NCBI GenBank assembly: GCA_027030245.1
Contig: JALVFE010000014.1
Location: 1 to 38,522 of the forward strand
Reading direction: 5' to 3'
Length of the DNA stretch: 38,522 bases
Source: Melioribacteraceae bacterium
GTDB lineage: Bacteria; Bacteroidota; Ignavibacteria; Ignavibacteriales; Melioribacteraceae
The position numbers and the translations under genes were made by a program. Under the pieces are notes generated by a model that was not told the DNA's origin, did no database searches, and worked only from the letters and a program-made list of their open reading frames with translations. Shown piece by piece: positions 933 to 12,140 of the stretch (the first letter of the stretch is position 1; each line of letters opens with the position of its first letter).

Positions 933-1514
933 TTTTCTTTTCCCGTTAATTTGCATTTATTGTTCTTTAAATAAAAACTTAAAGGATTTACAGGAAAATT
1001 AAAAGTTATTTTAAGGGTGCATCTTTTCCTCCGTTTTGTAATTTAATTATAGTTTCTATTATTTTAACTTTGTTTACCTTTTACTCAAAGTAAAAAAAAA
1101 AAAAAACGGAAAAAGTCAATACCAAAATATTCAAATTCGATAAACGTTTTAATTTTAGCTTTATATGTCATAAAAACTTTCTTAAATCAAATAAACATAT
1201 CAAAAAATGGTACTGTTAATTCCAATGATTGAAACGGAAATAATTGGATGTAAATAGCTTAACATTCCTATCGGTAATGCTTTCGGTTTCCGTTAAATCT
1301 ATTATGTTAATGGGCAAAAATACTTTCATTAACGAAATTTCAATCATTTGCGGATTGCAAACAGTGTAGACGGTACAACTTACAAGCAATGAAGATCGTA
1401 AATTTATAAAGTCAAAGCATTCTTTGATTCTACATCTTATTCGTGGCAATAGATTAAATTTTGCCGGTTGGTATCGGAAGAAAATAGTTGTTCTTTACTC
1501 CCCGGAAATATAGT
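933..1514. other. Gene-free AT-rich spacer
   Basis: No convincing gene. A run of 15 A sits at 1092-1106. Short ORFs here have no ribosome site and no protein-like composition. It presumably contains the promoter of the lipoprotein that starts at 932, but I cannot place it. Confidence 0.6.
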
Positions 1515-1597
1515 TTCTTACTCTTGCTCTTAATCGTAATCTTAATCTCGTCTTTCAAACACGTGATCAAGATTAAGAGTAAGATCATGATTAAGAA
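1515..1597. repeat. Long imperfect inverted repeat built from TTAATC-type hexamers
   Basis: Arms 1515-1551 and 1561-1597 (37 nt each) match as inverted copies at 30 of 37 positions, with a 9-nt spacer (1552-1560). Each arm is itself a run of degenerate hexamers (CTTAATC, GTAATC, CTTAATC, with GATTAAG on the other side). The structure could form a long hairpin and could also slip as a microsatellite. No coding role is apparent. Confidence 0.7.
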
Positions 1598-1700
1598 TTT
1601 GTTTACCAAATAATACAAATGTGGTTAATAATATTATGTGGCAAGAAAAGGTATTCTTCAATATTGATTTTTCACAACTGGCAAAATTTTTACAGTAAAA

Positions 1701-1724
1701 ATGTCGAGGCGCGGGCCTCGACAT
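1701..1724. repeat. Perfect 10-bp palindrome (REP-like)
   Basis: ATGTCGAGGC, then the four-base loop GCGG, then GCCTCGACAT. It is GC-rich in an AT-rich spacer, which is typical of a dispersed REP-like extragenic palindrome rather than a terminator; no T-run follows. Confidence 0.8.
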
Positions 1725-1822
1725 CAGTGCAAATGCCATACTTCTTCCGGGTGCCAAGCTCCATACCAAGGCATTGTCTGAACATGATTAAATCTTTAAC
1801 TTTTTCTTATTGAAGATTGAAC

Positions 1823-2013
1823 CCCGCGACTTCAGTCGCTGGATAAGAAACACAAACCAAAAAGAAAGAAACCGATTTATCGGTTTCCGCAGCTAATACC
1901 ATATTTTAGCTAACGAATGCGACATTTTTTTGCTACAAAAACCGTTGAAACGGTTCCGTTTATTTTTTATGTGCTCATGGAGATATTGCTTATCCCACGG
2001 ATAAATCCGTGGG
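1823..2013. repeat. Cluster of short hairpins (composite REP-like element)
   Basis: At least five separate hairpins follow each other. 1823-1842 is CCCGCGAC/GTCGCTGG with one mismatch. 1868-1887 has arms GAAACCGA/TCGGTTTC. 1891-1911 has arms AGCTAA/TTAGCT. 1940-1955 has arms AACCGTT/AACGGTT. 1994-2013 has arms CCCACGGA/TCCGTGGG. Most have loops of two to four bases. The spacing is irregular, so this is not a CRISPR array. I read it as one composite mobile or REP element; a transcribed structured RNA is the alternative. Confidence 0.7.
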
Positions 2014-2039
2014 GTTAGCGTGTGTTGAGAAGTAAGAAA

Positions 2040-2069
2040 TGTAGGGACAAGGCATGCCTCGTCCCTACA
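2040..2069. repeat. REP-like palindrome just after the giant surface gene
   Basis: Arms TGTAGGGACAAGGC and GCCTCGTCCCTACA around a central AT, 13 of 14 positions pairing. It starts 18 bases past the stop of the gene at 2087-6058, so it could protect or end that transcript, but no T-run follows in that direction. Confidence 0.75.
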
Positions 2070-2086
2070 AATTTGGTCATTCGATA

Positions 2087-5000
2087 CTATTTCATCAAAA
2101 TCATTTTCTTCGTTTGGGAAAATCCCCCGGCGGTAAGTTTGTAGAAATATAAACCGCTCGGGAGATTAACGGCATTAAAGTTAACGGAATAATAGCCCGG
2201 CGATTTTGCTTCGTTCACAAGTGTTGCAACTTCCCTTCCAAGAACATCGTAAATTTTAAGAGTCACGAACCCCTCCTCGGTCCTCCCCTTTGCCAAAGGG
2301 GAGGAAGTTGGGATTGAATATTTAATTGTTGTTGTGGGATTAAACGGGTTCGGGTAATTCTGACTCAATTCAAATTTATCCGGTAACTTGTTTCCGTCTG
2401 TTATTCCGGTCGGATCTTTTATTATTGCCAAGACTTGCACCCTTGCTTCGTCTACATTAGGATCATTTGACTGAACCATTATTACACCGTCGGAGTTCGA
2501 ACTATCGAGATCATTCGCAGAAACATTTACGTTAATAAAAGAAGACATTCCCGGCGGAGTAATACCGTTATTCGGAGAAACCTTAATCCATTTTGAGTAG
2601 AAGGTTGTATGAACTTCCCATTCCAGATCTTCGTTGCCGGGATTTTCTATGTTCACTTGCAATGTTTGAACACCACCCGGCGGAATTTCAAAAATCAACG
2701 AATCCTTATCCAAAGCAATTTTGGGATAGCTGCCTACGTTCATTACGACTTTAACAACTTTGAATGGATTTGTTGTGTCATCAACAAAAACGTTGAGAAC
2801 ATTGGAATAATCACCCGCGGATAAACCGCTTGAATTGAATGACATCAAAACCGTATCCATCTGATTTCCGCCTAACGTATCGGAAGATGAAGTTACTTCC
2901 ATCCATGATTTATCGGGTGATTCCGCATACCAGGTAACTGTTTTACTGCCGTAATTTGCAAGATAAACTCCAACATCAACCGTATCTTCGCTGTTAATTC
3001 CCACCCACAAACTATCCGTGGAAACTTCTACGTCTGCGGCAGCCGTTCCAACGTGAATTTCTACCGGCACAAAAACAACCGAATCAACGGGATCGTTCGA
3101 CCGGATAATTAACGTATCGTAATAATATTGATCTTGAGTAAGACCGGCAGCGGAAAATTCAAGCAACAATGTATCTGCTCCACCCGGCGAAACCGAACCG
3201 GATGTATTGGAAATTGATAACCACGAACTGCTCCATTCAACCGACCAGTTCATTGTTTCAACGCCAACATTTGAGATTGTAAAATTCTCACTGCTACCCG
3301 AGTTTGGATCTACATCCGAAAAAATACTCTGCGGGGATACCGATATTTTTGCAACGTTACCTCTGATTAACACTGCATTAGAAAATTCCGATGTATTGTT
3401 GGAATCGTCGGTTGCCGTTGCAGTTACATATTTCCACGCATAATTTGATGCCGGCAGAGCAAATCTGAAATCAGTTTGACCGCTGTTATCTAACGCAACA
3501 TTCATTTCGCCAATAAAATTCTGACCTTCGCCGTAACCGCTGGCATCTGCCGAATCGCTGGCAAAAAACTGTAATTTATACGAACCGTCCGGTTTACTTT
3601 TAAATGTTCCGGTAACTACCAATGAATCGGTTTCCGTTGCCGAGCTTATCTCGGGGAAATTTTGCAAACCGTTCGGACCGTCGTCTTCGTCCATCAAATC
3701 AACTTCTGTTTGATATGCATCCCACTGCAAATCAATCCCGAAGCGACCGTTACGGTAAATTGAATTATACAAAATCGAATTATATTTGCTTGCACCATAT
3801 GCAACAGCCACACCGGCATCCCCGTTAAACGCAACAACATTACTGTCCACGTTATCGTTTGTGGTATTATTAAACAAAAGAACACCGGCAACATCATTTC
3901 CTAAATCTGCGCAGCTTGCATTGGTTCCAATGTAATTATGTTTAATTGAAATGTTTGAACTGTTTTCCACTCTTATTCCCGATTCACCGTTCCCGGCAAT
4001 TATATTAGGCGCATCTGCCCGACCGATATAATTAAAGTTTGCAGTATCCGAAATATTAACACCGTCGAAATTATTCGGGACCGGACTGTTACCGTCAGCC
4101 GAAACACCGATATAATTATTGAATATTTTATTTTGTTCCACACCTCCGTCGGAAAGAACGATACCGCTCATCCAGTTTCCGGATATGATATTCCTGGAGA
4201 GCGAATCCGCACCGCCGACAATATTATTGTGTGCACCTTCCACAATTTCGATACCGGAAGCATTTTTAGATAACCCCGCGGTTCCCGTTTTGTCTGTTCC
4301 TATATAATTTCCGGCAACCGTATTATTAAACGACGAGCTGCCGTTAATGTTAATTCCCCCCAAAATAACATTTCGTTTTTCCGGAGATGTTCCCCCGATT
4401 GTGTTGTAACTTCCGTTTTCTATACGGATGCCGTATGAATCGTCTTTCGGGTTACTCAAACCATCCGCACTGGTTCCTATAAAGTTGCCTTCAATTCTAC
4501 ATGAATCGCTATAGAATATATTGATTGCGGTTCCCACATGTTGGTTAATAATTAAACCTTTTATAGTTGTATTATTCGATTCAATTGTTAATCCTGTGTT
4601 CCCGTCTGTATTTAACTCTATCATCGGTTCGGCATTCGAGCCATCGGCAAGTGCGTTGCTGTTGGGAGCTGAGCCGGGTTGGGTATATCCGTCTATTACT
4701 ACAGGATATAAAATTGAAGGCAAATAACTTTTCAAAGTAATTGTTTGAACACCCGTACCGCTTATATTAAACGAAATTGTTATTACCGAATCTTTATACC
4801 ATGGCGGGCGGGAATTCGATTCTTCTATTGCCGAGCGCAAACTGGTTTTACCGAATTGAGTTGTTGCTATACCGTCCCCCAAATTCGTATCTTCATTATC
4901 GCCTTTACCGGTAACCTCAAAACCATTGACCAACATTTTATTAAATCTAATCGGAATTCTTTCAAGAGTGCGATTGTAATTCTGACCATAAGGCCAACGG

Positions 5001-10315: not shown

Positions 10316-11383
10316 TTAATTTTTAGCGGCAGCAAATATCCATTCTTCGCAAAATGACGGGATATAAACCCTGTTGTAAGTAACTTCGCTAAATCTGGCA
10401 TTCAAAATTTCATCTACCAATTCGAATGTTTCATTATCGAATACCGACGAACACTGCATGCTCAAAATTCCGCCTTTTTTCAAACGGCTTTTTATTCGGT
10501 CGAATAGTTTACCCAAATAAGTCGGTCTGTCCATTCTCGTAAAAGCTTCCGGATGCATTGTCAAATCACTTATTATGGCATCGAACTTCGGACCTTTGGC
10601 AAGGAATTTCATTACGTCTTGATAAACAACTTTTACTCTCGGATCGTCGAAAGCCTTATAACAAATTTTCTTCAAATATTTTTTAGATGCTTCAACAACA
10701 TCTTCATCGATATCGATTAAAGTAACGGAATCCGGTTTGTATTTTAATACTTCGTGTAAAATTCCACCGTCTCCTCCGCCAAGCACGGCAACTTTACTCA
10801 GATTTCCTTTTAATGGTTTTAGAATATTAACCAACGCTTTATTGTAAATATCCGCATCATATTCGGCAATTTGCAAATCTCTATCTAGAAATAACATTCT
10901 ACCGAACGTTTTATTTTGAACAATTTCTATAAGCTGATACTTCGATCTCTTTGCGTATAAAACTTTATCGATGTAATATTTTACTTCATAATCGTAATCC
11001 GATTCGGATACAATCCAAGAAGGATTAATTAATTCGATTGTGCCTCCTCTCTGCACTTCGGCAATACGGGTTGAGTTCGGTTTAAGTTTCCTTTGAACGA
11101 AACGGATGAACTTCTCTTGTTTTTTCGCATCCGAGCAAGTATAAACATCGAGCGAAATATTGCCCGCTTCGGGATAAGTATGCAATGCAATATGCGATTC
11201 GCTTATAATCGCCAAAACCGTTATGCCAACGGGATTAAATTTGTGACTGATGATTTTTTCGTAAGTTAGTCCGGATTTTTCTATTCCTTCAACTACAAGT
11301 TTTTCCAATTCTTCCGGTGAATTTAAAATTTTACTATTGCAATTAAGCAATTCTACTACGTGATGCGTTCCTCTCGATTTCAT
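10316..11383 (-). CDS. Fused AdoMet decarboxylase and spermine-synthase-like aminopropyltransferase
   Basis: 355 aa joining two steps of polyamine synthesis. Residues 1-115 are a class 1b S-adenosylmethionine decarboxylase: the self-cleavage site is Glu62-Ser63 in SESHIALHTYPE, with His68 and Cys83 also in place, at the same numbers I recall for the Thermotoga maritima enzyme. Residues 125-355 are an aminopropyltransferase with the AdoMet loop LGGGDGGILHEVLKYKP (201-217), acidic LIDID, Asp176 and Asp273. This half resembles human spermine synthase more than bacterial SpeE: EYDADIYNKAL, SDLTMHP and IPSFCEEWIF match ESDLAYTRAI, NDLTAVP and VPSYLELWVF. The product would make decarboxylated AdoMet and use it in the same chain. 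Acceptor and product (spermidine, spermine or another) are not decided by sequence. A weak ACGGA precedes the ATG. Confidence 0.93.
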   Translation of the reverse strand: MKSRGTHHVVELLNCNSKILNSPEELEKLVVEGIEKSGLTYEKIISHKFNPVGITVLAIISESHIALHTYPEAGNISLDVYTCSDAKKQEKFIRFVQRKLKPNSTRIAEVQRGGTIELINPSWIVSESDYDYEVKYYIDKVLYAKRSKYQLIEIVQNKTFGRMLFLDRDLQIAEYDADIYNKALVNILKPLKGNLSKVAVLGGGDGGILHEVLKYKPDSVTLIDIDEDVVEASKKYLKKICYKAFDDPRVKVVYQDVMKFLAKGPKFDAIISDLTMHPEAFTRMDRPTYLGKLFDRIKSRLKKGGILSMQCSSVFDNETFELVDEILNARFSEVTYNRVYIPSFCEEWIFAAAKN

Positions 11384-11588: not shown

Positions 11589-12140
11589 ATGATTAAAACA
11601 TTTTTGTGTAAAGAAACCGAAAAAATTTTCAACCGCAGCTTTTCCGGGCAATTTCCCGCCGGAATTCAACATCTTACCGCAATGAAAATGAGAATGCTGA
11701 ACAGAGCATATACGCAAAGCGACTTAAAAAATCCGCCTCGCAATAGGTTTGAACTTGTAAGATCCGGAAATACTGTTAAATATTCGTTAACAATAAAATC
11801 AAGTTGGAAACTGAATTTCACAGCTTCAGACGGAAATCTTTTTGAAGTTGAACTTACTAATATTACAGTAAAAAATTCTGCTAACGAGAAAGGCGGTTTT
11901 CAACCGGTTCACCCCGGTGAGATTTTAGAAAACGAATTTTTAAGACCTTTAAATTTAAGTCAGAATAAATTAGCCATCGCTATTAAAGTTCCGCCCCGCA
12001 GAATAAACGAAATAGTTTTACGAAAGCGAAAAATAACGGCGGATACCGCCATCAAGCTGGCAAAGTATTTTGATATGTCGCCGGAATTTTGGATGGGTCT
12101 GCAATCAGATTACGAATTGGATATTGCTTTACAGGAATAG
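11589..12140 (+). CDS. Single-chain HigB-like toxin / HigA-like antitoxin fusion
   Basis: 183 aa. Residues 1-95 resemble HigB of the RelE superfamily (IKTFLCKETEKIFNRSFSGQFP, MLNRAYTQSDLKNPPRNRFELV, YSLTIKSSWKLNF). In the usual family the corresponding stretch reads close to YSIRINDQWRICF, so the conserved Arg is Lys here and the active site may be weakened. A linker (about 96-105) leads to residues 106-183, a complete HigA-type XRE regulator: VHPGEILENEFLRPLNLSQNKLAIAIKVPPRRINEIV, then KRKITADTAIKLAKYFDMSPEFWMGLQ. HigB and HigA are normally two adjacent genes, toxin first; here the order is kept but there is no stop between them. No second antitoxin gene is beside it. No Shine-Dalgarno motif is seen. 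A frame-preserving fusion that became a plain autorepressor is the main alternative to a functional toxin. Confidence 0.88.
   Translation: MIKTFLCKETEKIFNRSFSGQFPAGIQHLTAMKMRMLNRAYTQSDLKNPPRNRFELVRSGNTVKYSLTIKSSWKLNFTASDGNLFEVELTNITVKNSANEKGGFQPVHPGEILENEFLRPLNLSQNKLAIAIKVPPRRINEIVLRKRKITADTAIKLAKYFDMSPEFWMGLQSDYELDIALQE

Follow-up and report, generated by a model that had tools for sequence, protein, structure and literature searches.

A probable two-enzyme polyamine synthase from an Ignavibacteria genome, related to animal spermine synthase

Described fusions and domain organization of the window protein

The N-terminal domain of animal spermine synthase (SMS) is described in the literature as a relict resembling AdoMet decarboxylase (AdoMetDC), without AdoMetDC activity. 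In PMC12803844 (2025), animal SMS was argued to have been acquired, before the choanoflagellates, as a bacterial fusion of AdoMetDC with a spermine synthase (SpmSyn). Two fusions picked there among the bacterial proteins closest to animal SpmSyn, MBW2649524 of a delta-proteobacterium (358 aa) and MCK4773364 of Ca. Krumholzibacteria (376 aa), had AdoMetDC activity and made spermine and some spermidine in E. coli BL21speE, and with the Krumholzibacteria fusion spermine was about 60-fold above thermospermine. The fusions of AdoMetDC with an aminopropyltransferase (APT) in Ca. Pelagibacter were active in both halves and made spermine and thermospermine, according to PMC11107197. The protein described here is a further member of the bacterial kin of animal SMS already published in PMC12803844 with biochemistry on two other fusions. 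The word Ignavibacter is absent from the main text of that article, and Ignavibacteria are likewise unnamed in the main text of PMC11999265.

The window, the whole stretch of 38,522 nucleotides that was analysed, was one entire contig of a 3.81 Mb Ignavibacteria genome (97.7% complete). The fusion gene encodes a protein of 355 aa with the same domain order as MBW2649524 and MCK4773364 and nearly the same length, whereas the phyla of those two differ from that of the window. The Ca. Pelagibacter fusions likewise have a class 1b AdoMetDC at the N-terminus, followed by an APT. The open reading frame was confirmed, and its product matched AdoMet_dc (residues 7–113, E = 5e-32), Spermine_synt_N (E = 2.6e-15), and Spermine_synth (E = 3.7e-36) of Pfam, each above the curated cut-off. 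The joining of an AdoMetDC to an APT in one protein, which a first-pass annotation of this DNA had proposed, was thus borne out. The features are collected in Table 1.

Among the genomes compared, the fusion, a DUF423 gene, and an aldehyde dehydrogenase gene were still linked in the three closest alone, and therefore no functional link is claimed for the neighbouring genes. One frame at 11589–12140 (+) of the window encoded a HigB-like toxin segment (residues 22–85, under the cut-off) and a HigA-kind HTH_3 domain (residues 119–168), possibly a fused toxin–antitoxin; a 98-aa piece in the relative L003 was 44% identical to its product. A search of the window with Rfam at gathering scores gave no RNA elements.

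Table 1. Features of the fusion gene, with positions in the window
Feature	Position	Strand	Basis or remark
AdoMetDC–aminopropyltransferase fusion gene	10316..11383	(-)	ATG to TAA, 355 aa, stop codon counted within coordinates
Class 1b AdoMetDC domain, residues 1–115	11039..11383	(-)	PF02675, TIGR03330, 1tlu superposition
Glu62-Ser63, predicted self-cleavage site	11195..11200	(-)	13/13 aligned short fusions; 3iwb chain split coincides
His68	11180..11182	(-)	13/13 aligned short fusions
Cys83	11135..11137	(-)	13/13 aligned short fusions
Spermine_synt_N, APT N-terminal domain, residues 123–174	10862..11017	(-)	Pfam
Spermine_synth, APT catalytic domain, residues 178–352	10328..10852	(-)	Pfam
Asp176	10856..10858	(-)	Kept in all APT rows compared
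Asp205 in GGGDGG (motif 2 of PMC11107197)	10769..10771	(-)	Aligns with SMS Asp201
Asp224 (motif 3 of PMC11107197)	10712..10714	(-)	Glu in published main SpmSyns
Asp273	10565..10567	(-)	Aligns with SMS Asp276
Glu346	10346..10348	(-)	Aligns with SMS Glu353

AdoMet decarboxylase half

The N-terminal half scored above the cut-off of the NCBIfam model SAM_DCase_Bsu (TIGR03330) and, together with its Glu-Ser pair, His68, and Cys83, belonged by sequence to class 1b (SpeH-type). Residues Glu62, Ser63, His64, His68, and Cys83 were invariant across 13 aligned short fusions (relatives with frames of 356–382 aa); L012, which is frameshifted, and L156, which is decayed, were not part of this alignment. The two chains of the processed T. 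maritima enzyme (PDB code 3iwb) aligned to residues 1–62 and 64–118 of the window protein, so that the cleavage site was aligned with that of T. maritima, and Glu62-Ser63, His68, and Cys83 occupied the T. maritima positions. The complete set of class 1b pro-enzyme residues that had been read from the sequence at first pass was confirmed by this alignment and by the invariance. Ser63 would become the pyruvoyl group after the predicted cleavage, and His68 and Cys83 are taken here to be the processing and the catalytic residues of AdoMetDC, respectively.

SMS was left out of the AdoMetDC tree because its N-terminal domain lies beyond the reach of the sequence profile, and 18 rows were removed beforehand. 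The AdoMetDC halves of 14 short fusions formed one group in this tree (100/98); therefore, both halves travelled together. Purifying selection on both was indicated by dN/dS values of 0.038 and 0.079 for the two halves in the pair L004/L005. This pair was used instead of the comparisons of the window gene with L002 and L003, which were set aside with synonymous sites saturated (pS 0.71–0.76).

Two activities are supported by the intact and conserved AdoMetDC residues, and the protein is probably bifunctional. From these residues and from homology, self-cleavage at Glu62/Ser63 would give a 62-residue β chain and a pyruvoyl α chain still joined to the APT domain. The pyruvoyl group would then decarboxylate AdoMet, as was shown for two other bacterial fusions of similar kind in PMC12803844. 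In SMS the N-terminal domain is catalytically lost, whereas the AdoMetDC residues of the window protein are intact.

Aminopropyltransferase half and its affinity to spermine synthase

The C-terminal half contained both spermine synthase domains, the GGG(D/E)G motif, and the conserved catalytic Asp of APTs. Asp176 and Asp273, to which the first-pass annotation had pointed, were indeed kept in 14/14 short fusions and 50/50 unfused rows, and Asp176 also in all nine longer fusions and all seven PDB chains. The positions of SMS Asp201, Asp276, and Glu353 were all kept in the window protein; Asp201 is called an active-site residue in PMC3585406.

Glu346, at the place of SMS Glu353, was present in 13 of the 14 short fusions, with the exception of L012 and its frameshifted end, and in 0/59 other bacterial and archaeal APT rows, five of which were gapped there. 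The number 353 comes from counting along the chain sequence and applying an offset of 15 residues, deduced from a 381-residue chain and a 366-residue protein. On the basis of SMS structures, Glu353 is assumed here to bind the acceptor amine. Beyond the Trp aligned with Trp348, the window protein had 7 residues and all 14 short fusions had 7–8 (L012 included), compared with 48–75 in 50/50 unfused bacterial and archaeal APTs and 53–161 in 9/9 longer fusions. The human SMS chain was also short at the C-terminus (length 381, aligned up to residue 377). The window protein stayed under the cut-offs of the NCBIfam speE models, had no C-terminal tail, and stood outside the SpeE clade in the trees described below. 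Identity as an ordinary SpeE was ruled out by the trees and the tail length.

A closer likeness to SMS than to SpeE had been read from motifs in the first-pass annotation. The SMS motifs that it listed (GGGDGGIL, ESDLAYTRAI, NDLTAVP, and VPSYLELW) were all found in PDB chain 3c6k; as for E. coli SpeE, SDCTDPIGP was right but YHEML was wrong, the sequence being YHEMM. Human SMS was the best pairwise PDB match of the window protein with 109 bits, and E. coli SpeE against SMS gave 52 bits. This agrees with the claim, but the lead was not uniform. For the short-fusion relative L051, SMS came fourth at 87.5 bits, with a Thermus APT at 100, and with a profile of 13 short fusions, SMS, archaeal APTs, and Thermus APTs were tied (140.1, 140.7, and 138.5). 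Only positions 134–355 of the profile were aligned with SMS, whose N-terminal domain was unrecognised, and in the APT part SMS was at most 35% identical to a short fusion.

A structure of the window protein was predicted by AlphaFold2 with 49 window and locus proteins (mean pLDDT 92.5, pTM 0.69); a prediction with five sequences (pLDDT 53.2) was discarded. The top eight Foldseek matches of the model in the PDB were human SMS chains, with TM-scores by query length of 0.59–0.76 and r.m.s.d. values of 4.3–5.0 Å. By VIA-align, residues 5–355 of the model were superposed on SMS (3c6m_B) over 327 residues with 3.6 Å and a Z score of 29.5. The overlay on human SMS suggested at first pass was thereby carried out, and the match spanned both domains; in the model, the two-domain fold was shared with SMS (3c6k and 3c6m) over 327–329 residues. 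A Pyrobaculum APT, which covered just the APT half, tied with SMS by Z score (29.9); the N-terminal domain was superposed on the AdoMetDC 1tlu with a Z score of 19.7 (113 residues, 1.5 Å). In the predicted structure, the two-domain arrangement is SMS-like, and the APT domain on its own is non-discriminating.

The APT trees were built from at most 30 loci fetched per search (the searches matched 100, 179, and 36 genomes) and five longer fusions, with locus duplicates excluded; they included a single animal sequence and were made without the bacterial fusions assayed in PMC12803844. Two distant Streptomyces proteins (L047 and L050) were removed before the 78-row tree. Of the 21 rows removed before the tree with 14 short fusions, 19 were close kin of retained rows and the other two were L156, which is decayed, and L014, which has a long branch; L012 was retained in the trees despite its frameshifted end. 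Human SMS and nine short fusions lay on one side of a branch in the 78-row tree with support of 100/98, and SMS and the short fusions were joined with 100/97 both after removal of five long rows and in the tree with 14 short fusions. Phylogeny of the C-terminal half, proposed at first pass with a firm position inside ordinary SpeE as the outcome that would count against the reading, placed it outside SpeE and with SMS in all three trees. SMS may be the sister group of the short fusions or may arise from within them, because in the three trees the short fusions as a group without SMS had support of 98/89, 78/91, and 91/76. The AU test rejected the grouping of SMS with eukaryotic spermidine synthases (p = 0.0147), with all SpeE-type rows (p = 0.0296), and with all thermospermine-type rows (p = 0.0307), these three p-values being modest.

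It is quite improbable that the window protein is a parallel fusion with an APT of the spermidine or thermospermine type, whose SMS likeness would come from long-branch attraction and convergent C-terminal shortening. The branch of SMS was very long (2.0–2.45) and carried one animal sequence, so that long-branch attraction, though reduced, may still contribute; the tie in the profile scores points the same way, and fusion arose more than once in the phylum, where longer fusions lie in the SpeE clade. However, the grouping with SMS persisted without the five long rows, the three alternatives were rejected by the AU test, and the loss of the tail and the Glu are two additional shared features. 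Seven of the eight longer fusions in the 78-row tree were grouped in the SpeE clade, and the 619-aa L014 was basal on the SpeE side. The first-pass alternative of a parallel fusion therefore holds for the longer fusions of the phylum, but the short fusions group with SMS.

The longer fusions of 433–446 aa (L024, L029, L081–L085, and L162), a second kind in the phylum of the host, have the same domain order as the window protein, but differ from it in an APT of the SpeE clade, a tail of 53–70 residues, and the lack of Glu346. Green et al. (2011) reportedly described AdoMetDC–APT fusions with which these longer ones are to be compared.

Common descent of the short fusions with SMS, and not with ordinary SpeE, is supported by the trees, the AU tests, the lost tail, the shared Glu, and the two-domain Foldseek match. 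The AdoMetDC half of the animal enzyme would have lost catalysis after this common ancestry, in line with the literature. We consider it likely, from the sequence and the predicted structure, that the window protein belongs to the animal SMS clade as a polyamine synthase with two enzymes in one, working by the mechanism proposed here. The first-pass annotation had also called it the ancestral, still two-activity form of the eukaryotic enzyme, with putative substrate channelling of decarboxylated AdoMet. Its central idea was correct in outline and already in print in PMC12803844. The intact AdoMetDC residues fit the two-activity part, but the protein is a living relative from a related lineage and no ancestor.

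Distribution, polyamine pathway, and predicted products

The nearest named kin were Melioribacteraceae and Ignavibacteria MAGs, with fusions 88, 82, 59, and 58% identical to the window protein. Short fusions were sporadic, in 4/395 genomes sampled from the phylum, 10/294 sampled from the class, 4/26 genomes of the host family among those listed, and 2/295 from the phylum to which a Nitrospiraceae-labelled genome belongs. The sporadic spread points to probable transfer and loss. Among the genomes of the class, G828 had a decayed frame of 317 aa (L156), in which His68 and Cys83 were lost by eye and APT residues corresponding to 221–250 of the query were missing, and G188, of the same genus (code g12), had a frame change through which L012 diverged from the family near its end. 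On a bolder, less likely reading, the fusions of Ignavibacteria, together with those few from the phylum of the Nitrospiraceae-labelled genome, are part of the bacterial lineage closest to the donor of animal SMS. They would then have kept the donor state, with an active AdoMetDC, a short C-terminus, a counterpart of Glu353, and one APT performing both transfers with decarboxylated AdoMet from the same chain.

Several other arrangements were seen. In four genomes of one family (L151–L154), the fusion lay between genes resembling methionyl-tRNA formyltransferase and cystathionine gamma-synthase/lyase, both named by eye. In another family of the same class (code f64, L157–L160), each genome had one AdoMetDC and two separate APT matches, one of the APTs falling among the thermospermine-type rows of the tree. 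L177 was a longer fusion of normal order (425 aa). Three IMG/VR contigs (L199, L200, and L201) carried at 1360–2598 (+) a reverse-order fusion of 413 aa in one frame; in L199 the APT came first (Pfam, 74–257) and a class 1b AdoMetDC second (307–411), in which the ESH, H, and C residues are kept. The Microcystis phage MaAM05 (MW495066.1, 247373–249057) had one speE and two speH annotations, with 93% query cover in two pieces.

An IMG/VR scan with the window protein gave no relative. All 50 matching records in the plasmid collection and all 141 in the phage collection were below 60% identity, the highest being 32.2% among the 30 listed and 38.7% among the 20 listed, respectively. PMC9992855, which deals with viral polyamine enzymes, has neither the word fusion nor the word fused in its main text.

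In the host genome, the fusion was the sole match of AdoMet_dc and the sole match of Spermine_synth; the same searches gave matches in 8/14 and 11/14 control genomes, respectively. Pyruvoyl arginine decarboxylase (PvlArgDC) was found in 9/9 fusion carriers searched, and an Arginase-family gene was likewise found in all nine, the copy of the host genome being an agmatinase above the cut-off. Putrescine would be supplied from arginine through these two enzymes, and the deduced route runs from arginine to agmatine, putrescine (or aminopropylagmatine), spermidine, and perhaps a tetraamine. With no second APT found in the genome, the fusion must at least make spermidine or the aminopropylagmatine precursor, if the cell uses such a route.

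A hybrid polyamine pathway with a carboxyspermidine route is described in PMC11999265. As a source of spermidine this route was rejected, since nspC (carboxynorspermidine decarboxylase) was above the cut-off in 0/9 fusion carriers (1/14 control genomes), and the best Sacchrp_dh_NADP protein of the host genome reached 33 bits against carboxynorspermidine synthase, with a cut-off of 800. This genome had four Sacchrp_dh_NADP matches, two of which were run against NCBIfam, and its one PF02784 protein above the cut-off was LysA (diaminopimelate decarboxylase).

The APT domain would transfer an aminopropyl group to putrescine to give spermidine, and then to spermidine to give a tetraamine, probably spermine. 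Spermidine followed by a tetraamine is the most likely outcome, and spermine specificity is uncertain because residue 224 is Asp, at the place of Glu in published bacterial spermine synthases. The SpmSyn pattern in PMC11107197 consists of Asp in motif 2, Gly two positions on, and Glu in motif 3. The window protein had Asp205 and Gly207 of motif 2, and the Glu of motif 3 was absent from it; the motif 3 residue was Asp in nine and Glu in five of the 14 short fusions.

That the protein, although of the SMS clade, serves in the cell as an AdoMetDC–spermidine synthase only, tetraamine activity being later or negligible, seems doubtful. Spermidine would depend on the fusion as the sole APT found, and Asp224, shared with most short fusions, is unlike the main published SpmSyns. 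Yet the conservation of Glu346 speaks against this, as does the spermine made by both bacterial fusions assayed in PMC12803844. That the product is some different tetraamine, or thermospermine mixed with spermine, is unlikely. Spermine and thermospermine both came from the Ca. Pelagibacter fusions (PMC11107197), spermine was not alone even with the Krumholzibacteria fusion (PMC12803844), and Asp in motif 3 is common to plant and Thermus thermospermine-type chains, whereas Asp205 and Gly207 form the spermine-type pattern.

What the two-enzyme synthase preferred here adds is a member in Ignavibacteria, in whose genome no other APT was found, together with the marks of tail loss and Glu. Within the sets examined, the loss of the tail and the Glu at the place of SMS Glu353 distinguish the SMS-type clade from the independent fusions of SpeE type. 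A further bacterial group thereby joins the relatives of animal spermine synthase, and in the host genome one fusion is the only detectable aminopropylating enzyme.
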